From Owenweeksia sp. (GTDB lineage Bacteria; Bacteroidota; Bacteroidia; Flavobacteriales; Schleiferiaceae), in NCBI GenBank assembly GCA_028277105.1, contig JANQHO010000120.1, positions 1-64,000 on the forward strand: a stretch of DNA of 64,000 nucleotides, read 5' to 3'. Under the pieces are notes generated by a model that was not told the DNA's origin, ran no database searches, and saw nothing but the letters and a program-made list of their open reading frames with translations. The first letter of the stretch is position 1; each line of letters begins with the position of its first letter. The position numbers were made by a program, and so were the translations under genes. Of this stretch, positions 27,794 through 32,092 are shown piece by piece.

Positions 27794-28207
27794 CTATTGA
27801 CACTGATCACAAACCCCGCCTAACAGTAAAAACTTTTCATCTACCCTGAAGCCATGAGGGCTTTTTAAAGATGGGATTTCGTAATCTTCTAAACAAATGG
27901 TATCGCCACATTCGTGGCATTTAAAATGAGCGTGATCATCAGAATGATGATGTTCTACCGAATGGTCGTGATCACAGAGGGCGTATTTTACCGATACTTC
28001 ATCATCCGGTATTTTGTGAAGGATGCCACACTTTTCAAAGGCATCAAGTATGCGGTAAAGGGTAACACGATCCATGTTACTCCCCATTTTGGCCTGGATC
28101 TCACTGTGTGAAAAAGCCTTGCTGTGCCCGGCAAATAAGCTGAGCACGGCAAGGCGGTTTCCGGTTTTTCGCAATTTGTGTTTGAGGAGAAGCTCTTCGG
28201 CTTTCAT
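27794..28207 (-). CDS. Fur-family metalloregulator, Zur-like
   Basis: 137 residues. Residues ~1-80 are the winged helix (LRKTGNRLAVLSLFAGHSKA, FSHSEIQAKMGSNMDRVTLY, RILDAFEKCGILHKI). Residues ~80-137 are the metal/dimer domain with two CxxC pairs (CHEC, CDQC) forming the structural zinc site. It also has an unusual His cluster, HDHSVEHHHSDDHAHF. Zur is favoured over Fur or PerR because the next genes encode a His-rich lipoprotein and TonB receptor, but that is inference. It lies 1 bp after the lipoprotein gene, so it is in the same operon and probably represses it. Confidence 0.88.
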   Translation of the reverse strand: MKAEELLLKHKLRKTGNRLAVLSLFAGHSKAFSHSEIQAKMGSNMDRVTLYRILDAFEKCGILHKIPDDEVSVKYALCDHDHSVEHHHSDDHAHFKCHECGDTICLEDYEIPSLKSPHGFRVDEKFLLLGGVCDQCQ

Positions 28208-28208
28208 T

Positions 28209-29024
28209 CTATTCTACATGTACTTCGCCTTCAAAGATACTGATGTTGCCATCATTGTCTTTAGCTGTAATTTCCAAGGCATAATGTCCTTCTTCAGCAT
28301 CGGAAGGAATAGAAATAACAACGTTACCGTCTGTTTCAAAATCCCAGCTCAAATCATTGCTTCCATCTAAATCAAAATCAACATCGTATAGAGGGGTGTC
28401 ACTCTTTTTTCCGTGGGAGTGGTGGTCATCGTGTTCTTCTTCGAGAACTATGGTAATTTCATCCAGGTCAGTATCATCTGTAATTGTACCTTTCAAGCTA
28501 ATGCTTGCACCCTTGTCTACGTGAACTTCTGTAGAAAAATCAGGGTCAGTAACATCAATGGTAGGCTCACTGCCGTTAGAGATCATGAAATCAACCTCTA
28601 CAAACTCCCCTTCATTACCTTCTCCGTCAATCAAGCGGAAAATAGCGTGGTAAGGGCCGGCCGTAGCATTACCAGGAACGTCCATGTGTTCGTGTACAGT
28701 TTCGGTTTTACCTGAAAGTTGAATGATTTTAACTTCTGCCCAATCAATGCTACTTTTTTTACCGTGAGAGTGTCCGTCAAAAACATCGTGAACATCAATT
28801 TTCAACTCACCTAAAGCTTCATTGTCTTCCACTTCAACATCAAAATGTATTTCTGTACCAGCAGCTACAGTGATGTCTTCGTTACTGCCATTAATCATAG
28901 CGCTTGTGATAGTAGGCTTTACAGTATCCTGGTTATCGTTGTCGTTATCGTCATCTTTATCACAGGCTATAGAGACTGTTAAAAGCAGAGCTATTAAAGC
29001 GGGAAATTTTATAAACTTTTTCAT
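28209..29024 (-). CDS. DUF4625 lipoprotein, His-rich, probable metal binding
   Basis: 271 residues. Signal peptide II with lipobox near SIACDKDDD (Cys ~21) and an acidic linker. Two beta-sandwich repeats follow. Each carries HSHGKK (GHSHGKKSS and HHSHGKKSD), and further His-rich stretches appear (EHDDHHSH, VHEHMD). This is the DUF4625 layout. Paired with a TonB receptor and a Fur-family regulator, it most likely captures zinc or another transition metal on the cell surface. It has its own TAnnTTTG promoter covering an operator. Confidence 0.85.
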   Translation of the reverse strand: MKKFIKFPALIALLLTVSIACDKDDDNDNDNQDTVKPTITSAMINGSNEDITVAAGTEIHFDVEVEDNEALGELKIDVHDVFDGHSHGKKSSIDWAEVKIIQLSGKTETVHEHMDVPGNATAGPYHAIFRLIDGEGNEGEFVEVDFMISNGSEPTIDVTDPDFSTEVHVDKGASISLKGTITDDTDLDEITIVLEEEHDDHHSHGKKSDTPLYDVDFDLDGSNDLSWDFETDGNVVISIPSDAEEGHYALEITAKDNDGNISIFEGEVHVE

Positions 29025-29049
29025 CTAAGGAACGATTTTTAATTTACGG

Positions 29050-29079
29050 CAAATATAGTTAAATGAAACAATGTTGCAA
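29050..29079 (-). promoter_or_regulatory. Promoter and overlapping operator of the DUF4625-fur operon
   Basis: On the minus strand TTG (29077-29079), 19 bp, then TATATTTG (29050-29057): an ideal Bacteroidota promoter 26 bp before the ATG. The inverted repeat TGCAACATTGTTTCA (29064-29078) sits between the two elements, overlapping -33. It matches the site upstream of the TonB receptor at 12 of 15 positions. A repressor here would block RNA polymerase. Confidence 0.6.
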
Positions 29080-29082
29080 AAA

Positions 29083-31398
29083 TTAAAAGCTAACGGAAAG
29101 ATTGGCTACAATATTTCTTCCCTGCTCCGGTAAGTTTAGAATACGATAGCGGGATAAGTGATTGAGATAGGCGGTATTAGCCAGGTTGAGCACGGAAAGG
29201 CCTGCGGCAATTTTAGCTTTGCCAAGGCTGAACTTAACCCGGGTCTTGAGATTAGTTAACTGGTAAGCAGGTGTAGTAGCTTCATTGCGATCTACTCTCT
29301 CCTGGGCAGCGGCCCAACGGTGCTCCGCTGCTATAGACCAACTGGTTTTTTCGTTTTCCAGAATTTCATATTCCAGGCTAACAAGGTTGGAAAGAGGAGG
29401 GGTAAAGGGCAACGGCAGCCCAGTTGCCAGGTTGAGATTGTAAACGTATTCTACAGCAGTGGAAAGATGCAGCTGTTGGATGAGGTGATATTCTGCATAT
29501 AATTCGCCACCACTGTGAACGGCCTCGGTTTGGGAATAAATGTACAGCTGACCGGCATCCGGCAGTTGTGAAAAACTACCGCTGGGCCTCAGGTAGATAT
29601 AATTGCTGAAATAGTTGAAGAAAGGGGTTAATTTAACATAAAGGTCCTTTAATAAATAGCTGAAGCCGAGATCGAACTGGTAGCCTTCTTCGGCATTCAG
29701 GGTGGGGGTTCCCACTTCGTGGCGGAAAGTGCCGTGATGCACCCCGTTGCTCACCAACTCAGCTGCTACCGGTATTCTGAAGCTCTTGGCCAGGTTGAGA
29801 TTGATATTCCATTGGTCACCGGGCCGGTACACCAGCCCGTAACCCAGGGCGTAATTAAAAAAATGGCGTTCGTTTTGAGGAGATCGCAAAACCAGGGAGT
29901 CCAGGTCATTGAACCAGGGTTGCAGGTGTTCTTCGGAGGAGATATATCCGTAATCAAGGCGTAATCCCGCGTTCCAGTTCCAGTTTTCGTTAAAAGACCC
30001 TTCCAGTAGAGAATAAACACCACCATTGTAGGAGGTGTAACCGGGTAAGAGGTGTTCCCAACCGCTTTTTATATTTTGCTGGTACTGGTGGTTGGTACCC
30101 AGGTTGTACTTTATGCCCTGGCTTTCCCAACTATAGCTCGAGTTAAGGCTCAGAGTGTGTAAGTCCAGCCCAAGGGCCAGGGTATTGCCCTCTTCTATTT
30201 CTATTAAACCGTGAGAATGCGGATTGGAGTTTTCCTGCCGCCTGTTGTGCTGGTAACCCACATCAGTAGTCAGCCAATTATGGCCCAGCATAAGGTTTAG
30301 TTTGCCGTATATTTTGGTGTGGGTCACCTCCTGGTTGGGTAAACCGATATCGCTTACTTCTCCTATATTACCCACATCAAAAGCCCGGGGTATACCGGTT
30401 GCCCCGGGATAAAGCCCTACCTTTTGCCGGTATTGGCTCAACATCAGGCGGGCATTATAGGTAGCTTTTTGCAGACCGTAATTTAAGCGGTAGCTCAAAA
30501 GTTCTCCAGCCGTATTTTTAAGGCGGTTGTCCACTACGGGCAACACAAAACTGTTGTACACAAACTCTTCTGCCGGAATGCGGTAATCCTCGTAGCTTTG
30601 GTAACTCAGGCGGGCGGTTAAAAACTGTTGTTTTTGACGATAAGCCAGTTTTAACGATGAGCCTATGGTGTTGTTATTGGATTTATAAAGTCCGGTATAA
30701 CTGCCGGAAAGCCCTTGTACGGGAAGGGGCTCCGGTAATAATTTAATAAGCCCGCTCACCGCATCAGAACCATATTGTAAAGCTCCCGGCCCTTTAATGA
30801 TCTCCAGCCTTTCAGCATTAAAAGGATCTATTTCCAAACCGTGATCCATCCCCCACTGCTGGCCTTCCTGTTTTACACCCTGATCGTAAACAGCCACCCT
30901 GGTAGCTGTAAAACCCCTGATAACAGGCTTACCAATACCTACTCCGGTATTGTATGCTTCCAGGCCCGGTATTTTTTTCAGGGATTCGGCAAAAGAAGCT
31001 TCTAAGGCTTTTTCGCTTTCACCGTAATTGATGCGCTCTATGCTGAGGGAAGCATTGCGCTGCAGGGTTTTGGAAAGGCTTTCTTCTACCAGTACTTCTT
31101 TAAGCTCTAAATAAGTGGGCTTCATCAGAAAGGTTAAGCTTGTATCAGACCTGGCGATAAGGTTGAAGTCGCTGGCTTGATAACCCGGAGCTTCCAGGTG
31201 CAAATGATAATTGCCCGGCTGTAGCGCCATATTAAAACGGCCACTGGTGAATATCTGACCGGTTTCGTGGACTTCCAACCTGGCATTGCCGATGGGTGAT
31301 TCTGTACCGGCATCCAGAATTTGGATACTGATATTTATTTGAGCTTTAACGGAGAGAGATAAAACAGAGGAAAATATGAGTAAGCGCAAGGCTATCAA
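29083..31398 (-). CDS. TonB-dependent receptor of the metal-uptake module
   Basis: 771 residues, TTG start (an in-frame TAA lies five codons upstream and no ATG is available). Signal peptide of ~20 residues, carboxypeptidase-like domain (ISIQILDAGTESPIGNARLE), then plug with LEAYNTGVGIGKPVIRGF and ERLEIIKGPGALQYGSDAVS, then a barrel ending in Phe (NIVANLSVSF). A loop contains NSNPHSHGLIE, the same HSHG motif as the neighbouring DUF4625 lipoprotein. It probably imports zinc or a similar metal. Copper or nickel remain possible. An inverted repeat lies 17 bp before its start codon. Confidence 0.92.
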   Translation of the reverse strand: MIALRLLIFSSVLSLSVKAQINISIQILDAGTESPIGNARLEVHETGQIFTSGRFNMALQPGNYHLHLEAPGYQASDFNLIARSDTSLTFLMKPTYLELKEVLVEESLSKTLQRNASLSIERINYGESEKALEASFAESLKKIPGLEAYNTGVGIGKPVIRGFTATRVAVYDQGVKQEGQQWGMDHGLEIDPFNAERLEIIKGPGALQYGSDAVSGLIKLLPEPLPVQGLSGSYTGLYKSNNNTIGSSLKLAYRQKQQFLTARLSYQSYEDYRIPAEEFVYNSFVLPVVDNRLKNTAGELLSYRLNYGLQKATYNARLMLSQYRQKVGLYPGATGIPRAFDVGNIGEVSDIGLPNQEVTHTKIYGKLNLMLGHNWLTTDVGYQHNRRQENSNPHSHGLIEIEEGNTLALGLDLHTLSLNSSYSWESQGIKYNLGTNHQYQQNIKSGWEHLLPGYTSYNGGVYSLLEGSFNENWNWNAGLRLDYGYISSEEHLQPWFNDLDSLVLRSPQNERHFFNYALGYGLVYRPGDQWNINLNLAKSFRIPVAAELVSNGVHHGTFRHEVGTPTLNAEEGYQFDLGFSYLLKDLYVKLTPFFNYFSNYIYLRPSGSFSQLPDAGQLYIYSQTEAVHSGGELYAEYHLIQQLHLSTAVEYVYNLNLATGLPLPFTPPLSNLVSLEYEILENEKTSWSIAAEHRWAAAQERVDRNEATTPAYQLTNLKTRVKFSLGKAKIAAGLSVLNLANTAYLNHLSRYRILNLPEQGRNIVANLSVSF

Positions 31399-31414
31399 TA
31401 CAAATCTTTTTTAG

Positions 31415-31429
31415 CGCAACAAAGTTGCA
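31415..31429. promoter_or_regulatory. Operator-like inverted repeat upstream of the TonB receptor
   Basis: On the minus strand TGCAAC-TTT-GTTGCG has 5-bp perfect arms (GCAAC/GTTGC). The same motif (12/15) lies in the DUF4625 promoter. The conserved core TGCAACnTTGTTnC in two places in one metal module points to the Fur-family protein's binding site. Confidence 0.55.
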
Positions 31430-31507
31430 TAAAAGAGTCCGTTTGGCAAAGAAGGTCTGTAGAACTTCAAAACAGCCTATTTATCATACAGTAAAAATGG
31501 ACAAGCA

Positions 31508-32062
31508 TTATTTCCTGAATTTGTAAGTTACTGTGTATGTATTCTTTAGTAAGCCATTTTGGTACACTTTTTTAGCCATTGGCAATTGAGGGTAATTATA
31601 GCCGGGCATATATTCAAAAATCCAGGTTTCGGTACTTTCATCAGCAAAGCTTAGCAGGGTATGGCTTGGATTATCATATGTATTATAGGTTTCGCATTTG
31701 GCCAACAAACGTGGAGTATATGGCCTGGCAGAAAGAACTGAGGGATATGGATCCACAGTTTTTTCATCGGTAATTTCATGGTATTTATTGTAGCGGTAGG
31801 TAGTGGTTACCCATTTACTGCTATCCAGGCTAAAACCGTATTTTTTTTCTATCAAATTACCTTTATCGTCATATGTAAACTCGTATTGCGGGTACCTCGC
31901 TGTCTCTGTTCCAGCTGAATCATGATAGATTTTCCATTCCGTTATACTTTCGATTTTAAAACGTCTTACATCCCAGTAATCCAGATCAGTAAGCTGCCCG
32001 ATAACAGTGGCGTGTGTCAGGAGTACTATAATAACCGGGTAACAAAGCTTTTCATTTTTCAT
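31508..32062 (-). CDS. Exported protein with RHS-like YD motifs, unknown
   Basis: 184 residues. Signal peptide (MKNEKLCYPVIIVLLTHATV then IG). The body resembles short RHS/YD-repeat units (YEFTYDDKGNLIEKKYGF, TTYRYNKYHEI, YTVTYKFRK), a pattern of strand-turn pairs found in secreted Bacteroidota proteins. No toxin or catalytic motif. Upstream of its ATG the minus strand reads TGCAACGTTATTTT, a weak copy of the metal-operator core (10 of 14 positions), so membership of the same regulon is possible but unproven. Confidence 0.7.
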   Translation of the reverse strand: MKNEKLCYPVIIVLLTHATVIGQLTDLDYWDVRRFKIESITEWKIYHDSAGTETARYPQYEFTYDDKGNLIEKKYGFSLDSSKWVTTTYRYNKYHEITDEKTVDPYPSVLSARPYTPRLLAKCETYNTYDNPSHTLLSFADESTETWIFEYMPGYNYPQLPMAKKVYQNGLLKNTYTVTYKFRK

Positions 32063-32077
32063 AGCAACGGTTTATAT

Positions 32078-32092
32078 TAAAATAACGTTGCA
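32078..32092 (-). promoter_or_regulatory. Weak third copy of the TGCAAC operator
   Basis: TGCAACGTTATTTT on the minus strand keeps the left half-site TGCAAC and part of the right half. It lies ~15 bp upstream of the ATG at 32062. It may be chance. Confidence 0.2.

Follow-up and report, generated by a model that had tools for sequence, protein, structure and literature searches.

Closest described systems and the three-gene module

The described systems closest to the locus reported here are the repressors Zur of Escherichia coli and FurB of Mycobacterium tuberculosis, the receptor ZnuD of Neisseria meningitidis, the lipoprotein-lidded BtuB–BtuG system for vitamin B12 in Bacteroides, and the COG0523/ZigA zinc GTPases. 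We analysed a 64,000-nucleotide stretch of Owenweeksia sp. DNA (positions 1 to 64,000 of contig JANQHO010000120.1, assembly GCA_028277105.1), referred to below as the window. Genes for a ZnuD-like receptor, a DUF4625 lipoprotein and a Fur-family regulator lie together in it, with two copies of one palindromic element at their promoters. It is very likely that this module is a Zur-controlled system of zinc acquisition.

Site B of E. coli Zur consists of His77, Cys88, His96 and Glu111; according to the accessible text of PMC4219657, Cys88 is the most conserved of these residues and the C88S substitution abolishes repression. Zinc control in Bacteroidota appears to be thinly described. A Riemerella zinc study, in its accessible text, deals with ZntR and refers to Zur in general terms alone (PMC11960050), Zur of other phyla is mentioned in the accessible part of PMC9976891, and a term search of the available text of Zur reviews and the COG0523 survey gave no occurrence of the name Bacteroidota. 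A Zur box for Bacteroidota was not found in the open-licence literature (subscription papers and regulon databases were outside this scope), nor was the word DUF4625 in the open-licence papers searched. The operator and its distribution within Bacteroidota seem to be new, as does the likely capture of zinc with the help of a lipoprotein; lipoprotein-assisted zinc uptake is possibly a new form of such transport.

Pfam matches placed the three genes where an earlier note on this DNA had located them. All lie on the minus strand. The order given in that note (regulator, lipoprotein, receptor) holds as a listing by position, and needs correction as an order of transcription, which runs from the receptor gene (29083–31398; 771 codons from a TTG start, encoding Plug and barrel domains) through the lipoprotein gene (28209–29024; 271 codons) to the regulator gene (27794–28207; 137 codons). 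The lipoprotein gene begins 58 bp after the receptor gene, and only 1 bp separates it from the regulator gene.

The regulator matched PF01475 (FUR) with 44.2 bits against a cut-off of 23.1, and its best solved relative was M. tuberculosis FurB/Zur (2o03). Cys78 occupies the site-B position, where it is aligned with the FurB cysteine, and is invariant in 13 aligned orthologs. Both CxxC pairs (residues 97–100 and 133–136, i.e. C97, C100, C133 and C136) are likewise invariant in 13 aligned sequences, and the DNA-contact region reads DRVTLYR. The other Fur-family protein of the genome has neither the Zur-type cysteine nor the CxxC pairs. The regulator shares with E. coli Zur and FurB the Fur fold, the Cys4 structural pair and the site-B cysteine, and the regulons of those proteins likewise combine a palindromic operator over uptake promoters with COG0523 and transporter genes. 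The operator sequence, TGCAACnnnGTTGCA, is unlike theirs.

By single sequence (3.2e-16), profile (1e-36) and fold (top four matches), the best solved relative of the receptor was ZnuD, with 17–18% identity in structure alignment. We call the receptor ZnuD-like rather than ZnuD because its score for the NCBIfam ZnuD model NF038289, an 'exception' model, was far below the cut-off (99.5 versus 950 bits). For the high-affinity zinc site of ZnuD, the methods section of PMC4557270 prints D90/H100/E340/H499. Two parts of this site seem to be kept in the window receptor. The plug residues Asp185-His186 (30841–30846, minus strand) were aligned by profile with the plug Asp-His of 4rdr, which includes the zinc ligand H100, and His554 of the barrel pair His554-His555 (29734–29739, minus strand) was aligned with the zinc ligand H499; Asp185, His186 and His554 are conserved in all 14 receptors compared. 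The numbering of the crystal chain is offset by 14 residues from that of the paper, such that His186 corresponds to H100, His554 to H499 and Asp185 to the Asp beside H100 (residue 99). By this offset residue 90 would be Thr, and the D90 of the paper is apparently a printing error for D99. The single PHSHG loop reported in the earlier note is also present; its HSH (30211–30219, minus strand) includes H396, found in all 14 receptors, and H394, found in 13. The receptor model is of low confidence exactly at residues 181–187, and the geometry of the metal site therefore stays predicted.

The lipoprotein matched PF15418 with 144.9 bits (cut-off 27; 2.1e-42). Its lipobox Cys21 is followed by D-K-D-D-D (28947–28964, minus strand), an exact match to C-X-K-(D/E)2-X, the optimal surface-export signal of Bacteroidetes according to the accessible text of PMC5080379. 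In the window the signal reads CDKDDD; six of 15 aligned lipoproteins have Lys at +3 with acidic residues at +4 and +5, and the rest carry other acidic runs. The AlphaFold2 (AF2) model consists of two immunoglobulin (Ig)-like sandwiches with a mean predicted local distance difference test (pLDDT) score of 83. After the N-terminus, pLDDT fell below 50 only in two disordered loops (residues 84–90 and 200–207), one per domain, and these contain the two HSHGKK motifs that the earlier note had pointed out (residues 85–90, 28755–28772; residues 202–207, 28404–28421; both minus strand). H85 and H87 of the first motif and H204 of the second are invariant in the 15 aligned lipoproteins, as are H79 and H126. 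A fold search with the model returned generic Ig-like matches only, with template modelling (TM) scores to the query of 0.40 or less. The two Ig-like domains with disordered HSHGKK loops, together with the exact export signal, are the reason for suggesting that the DUF4625 lipoprotein is a zinc-capture partner at the cell surface, which would give this so far uncharacterised domain a possible function.

The pairing of a TonB receptor with an adjacent, predicted surface-exposed lipoprotein resembles BtuB–BtuG, and lipoprotein-assisted uptake has been proposed to be general in Bacteroides in the accessible text of PMC10404256. The window proteins differ from that system, as far as it is described there, in that an Ig-like DUF4625 protein takes the place of BtuG and the predicted substrate is zinc rather than cobalamin; the complex itself is a prediction from the genes. 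They differ from N. meningitidis ZnuD in that the receptor has a His-rich lipoprotein next to it.

A palindromic operator at the promoters and its conservation

The two 15-bp elements described in the earlier note were found at the places it gave, identical at 12 of 15 positions. They are better written as copies of one imperfect palindrome, TGCAACnnnGTTGCA (TGCAAC-nnn-GTTGCA), and we have abandoned the former notation, TGCAACnTTGTTnC. Operator 1 (TGCAACATTGTTTCA, 29064–29078, minus strand) lies between a −33-like TTTTTG (29077–29082), whose final TG it overlaps, and the −7 box TATATTTG (29050–29057). The lipoprotein–regulator promoter is TTTTTG, 19 nt, TATATTTG, and the operator occupies the spacer ahead of the −7 box, in agreement with the position claimed for it. 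Operator 2 (TGCAACTTTGTTGCG, 31415–31429, minus strand) lies 5′ of the receptor gene and ends 16 nt before the TTG start. The receptor promoter departs further from the canonical form (TTATG, 19 nt, AAGATTTG), its −7-like element (31401–31408, minus strand) having one mismatch to TAnnTTTG. These assignments were made with what we take to be the −33/−7 promoter consensus of Bacteroidota.

A scan of the source genome (3.9 Mb; 98% complete) for the motif, as suggested in the earlier note, found exact TGCAACNTTGTTNC only twice in 3,902,815 bases, both times at the module, with no control matches. The perfect palindrome has no copy in this genome; with up to one mismatch it occurs at six places, two of which are the window operators. 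When the operator was combined with a 6-nt gap and TAnnTTTG, seven matches were obtained, among which the module promoters ranked first (no mismatches) and second (one mismatch). The other five had two mismatches each, which is the control level (six control matches). Motif counts within the window were rejected as proof, as matches with two mismatches numbered nine against 6.4 expected and 21 of 100 shuffles gave as many. A third site, TGCAACGTTATTTT (32079–32092), 5′ of an open reading frame at 31508–32062 that has no Pfam or NCBIfam match, was judged too weak to be accepted as an operator; it has two mismatches to the motif of the earlier note and, counted by eye, three to the palindrome.

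The regulator was used as a query on 88 genomes of the same family, 49 of which had a match, and the best 17 of these 49 were inspected. Sixteen of the 17 share the receptor–DUF4625–zur operon. In the interval between the receptor and lipoprotein genes, 13 of the 16 operons carry the palindrome with no more than one mismatch and 15 with no more than two; one relative (G001) has none there. It also occurs 5′ of the receptor gene in the five closest relatives (three with one mismatch and two with two); at one mismatch it was not seen there in the other 11. The register of the lipoprotein promoter was compared between the window and 14 of the 16 relatives, omitting G001, where there is no site, and G014, a near-duplicate of G015. 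The order palindrome, 6–7 nt, TAnnTTTG is kept in the window and in 11 of the 14, and the other three have two palindromes, which flank or overlap the −7 box. In the exception among the 17 (G021, locus L066), the genes ahead of zur encode an ABC ATPase/permease and a DUF3299 protein, much as in the zrg zinc operon of Vibrio.

We also searched the 1.5 kb 5′ of zur at 63 named loci and in the window (n = 64), with 179 scrambled half-sites as controls. Exact copies of the palindrome were present in 29 of the 64 regions; the count rose to 44 when one mismatch was allowed and to 46 with two, versus 1, 3 and 17 for the best scrambled half-site. Only a 3-nt spacer between the half-sites works in these regions. 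The earlier note had held that absence from orthologous promoters would speak against the motif; the motif is present in most of the family operons and in most of the zur-upstream regions.

Genes behind the palindrome in related genomes

With the operator defined by its sequence, zinc regulons can be read from genome data throughout Bacteroidota. Exact palindromes numbered 43, in 36 of the 88 family genomes, versus nine in seven for the control (counted by eye). Thirty loci were inspected and their neighbouring genes assigned by phmmer, conflicting weak labels of other reading frames at three loci (L073, L079 and L084) being disregarded in favour of strong ones. The palindrome adjoins zur, DUF4625, COG0523, a TrxR-like oxidoreductase or a second receptor-operon lipoprotein at 23 of the 30 loci and MerC at one further locus, and the remaining six resemble chance. 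Exact copies in coding sequences (rpoB, a SusD-like gene and others, at five loci) were rejected as targets, as was one (L074) without a zinc-type neighbour.

The association varied with the class of gene. All seven family genomes that carry a gene for a TrxR/AhpF-like flavin adenine dinucleotide (FAD) oxidoreductase have the palindrome upstream of it with at most two mismatches. The fractions were 3/6 for COG0523 genes (one of these genes is truncated where its contig ends), 3/8 for MerC genes and, for ZIP genes, 3/30 at one mismatch and 5/30 at two; exact copies about 130 bp before ZIP in two genomes (G037 and G060) belong to loci outside the 30. In one genome (G004), the TrxR-like gene is followed by a MerC-type gene that adjoins zur. 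The DUF4625, MerC-type and TrxR-like proteins are not among the regulon genes in the accessible text of the published Zur studies compared, and the last two are nominated here as zinc-response genes.

In Chitinophaga, the box lies between an SCO1–zur pair and a divergent cluster of MerC, COG0523 and TonB receptor genes, and the COG0523 protein scored 585.6 bits for the zinc GTPase ZigA, just under the cut-off of 600. A ZigA-like gene is thus found behind the same box in Chitinophaga and in some family members; the source genome has none. At ten Chitinophaga loci and, by eye, at three others (L215, L218 and L232), the box separates zur or its operon from a divergent gene for a small MerC-type membrane protein. 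From this placement the MerC-type proteins are candidate zinc importers rather than mercury-resistance proteins. The fuller proposal, in which the DUF4625 lipoprotein would be a zinc-capturing surface lid that hands zinc over to the ZnuD-like receptor under a Zur box that also recruits MerC-type inner-membrane importers, is tentative, and we find it somewhat easier to doubt than to accept.

In genus g18, a second lipoprotein with an ELITTL...DGDGG motif heads the receptor operon behind the box (13 loci) and apparently replaces DUF4625; it has no Pfam or NCBIfam match. Of 393 genomes searched at the level of the order, 72 had a match; outside the family, exact sites were sparse and many lay in coding sequence, and repeated matches inside the same conserved coding genes of another family, f3, were rejected as targets. 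The 30 order-level loci inspected again include zur adjoining MerC-like genes (by eye), COG0523 and DUF4625. Two f3 genomes have an exact box 5′ of a gene for a small Cys/His-rich protein (CELCSPFCQCHCCHV).

Zinc as the probable ligand and the alternatives

A simple mechanism would connect these elements. When zinc is replete, a zinc-loaded Zur dimer would bind TGCAACnnnGTTGCA where it overlaps the core promoters of the receptor and the lipoprotein–zur pair, and would thereby block RNA polymerase, including at its own gene. As zinc falls, Zur would release the operator. The DUF4625 lipoprotein, probably on the surface, would then bind zinc through its pair of flexible HSHGKK loops and present it to the ZnuD-like TonB receptor for passage across the outer membrane. 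Entry to the cytoplasm would probably be through a ZIP protein, the likely inner-membrane route because ZnuA, present in 18 of the 31 genomes searched, was not found in the source genome. The site-B cysteine with the CxxC pairs, the closeness of the receptor to ZnuD and the box at ZigA-like and ZIP genes favour a zinc-type over an iron- or peroxide-type regulator, as the earlier note had proposed; zinc itself we infer from sequence.

Several observations weigh against this assignment. The regulator scored 30.1 bits for the NCBIfam Zur equivalog PRK11639, the best of the three equivalogs listed, versus a cut-off of 167, which is not a defining biological feature of Zur. An equivalent of E340, the fourth ZnuD ligand, could not be placed in the receptor alignment, and the copper receptor OprC was the next fold match after ZnuD. 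Eighteen of the 64 zur-upstream regions (all five from Hymenobacter and 13 others) have no palindrome even at two mismatches. Nor are the named loci independent samples, as 12 of them come from genomes already present in the family set and Chitinophaga contributes many. The source genome has no COG0523, TrxR-like or MerC partner, so that it is through relatives that the wider regulon is tied to zinc. Its ZIP gene does have a one-mismatch palindrome, TGCAACAGGTTTGCA, 99 bp before the ZIP match (locus L037, 1501–1515). However, this site lies inside a preceding methyltransferase-like coding sequence and is missing in the nearest relatives, and for these reasons it is not accepted as a proven target.

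Histidine-rich loops bind nickel and cobalt too, and this property, together with the low score for the Zur equivalog, would suit a regulator that senses nickel, manganese or cobalt and a receptor that imports that metal or its chelate. We consider this unlikely in view of the Zur-type cysteine and two CxxC pairs, the conserved ZnuD ligands, and the presence of the box upstream of the ZigA-like GTPase gene and some ZIP genes.

The NCBIfam TonB-hemin model scored above that for ZnuD with the receptor (123 bits, cut-off 316.85), and the zur operons of Chitinophaga include SCO1/SenC, as might be expected if the module were an iron, haem or oxidative-stress (Fur/PerR) unit with a haem-type receptor. 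All of these NCBIfam receptor scores are below threshold, however, ZnuD ranks above haem receptors in both sequence and fold, and the genome encodes a second Fur-family protein, which lacks these cysteines; together these points make such a unit very improbable. It is just as hard to credit that the palindrome is the site of another regulator and that the Fur-family gene is a mere neighbour. Although the box also occurs away from zur, at TrxR-like, MerC and COG0523 genes, it accompanies zur in different genera and is retained there even where the partner genes differ, and its half-sites, GCAAC and GTTGC, match the RNNNY contact rule of E. coli Zur given in the accessible text of PMC6103462. 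Least probable of all is an OprC-like importer of copper with a copper-binding lipoprotein. The next-best fold match speaks for it; against it, OprC ranks below ZnuD in sequence and fold, the ZnuD-type Asp-His and His are conserved, and both regulator and regulon are of the zinc type.

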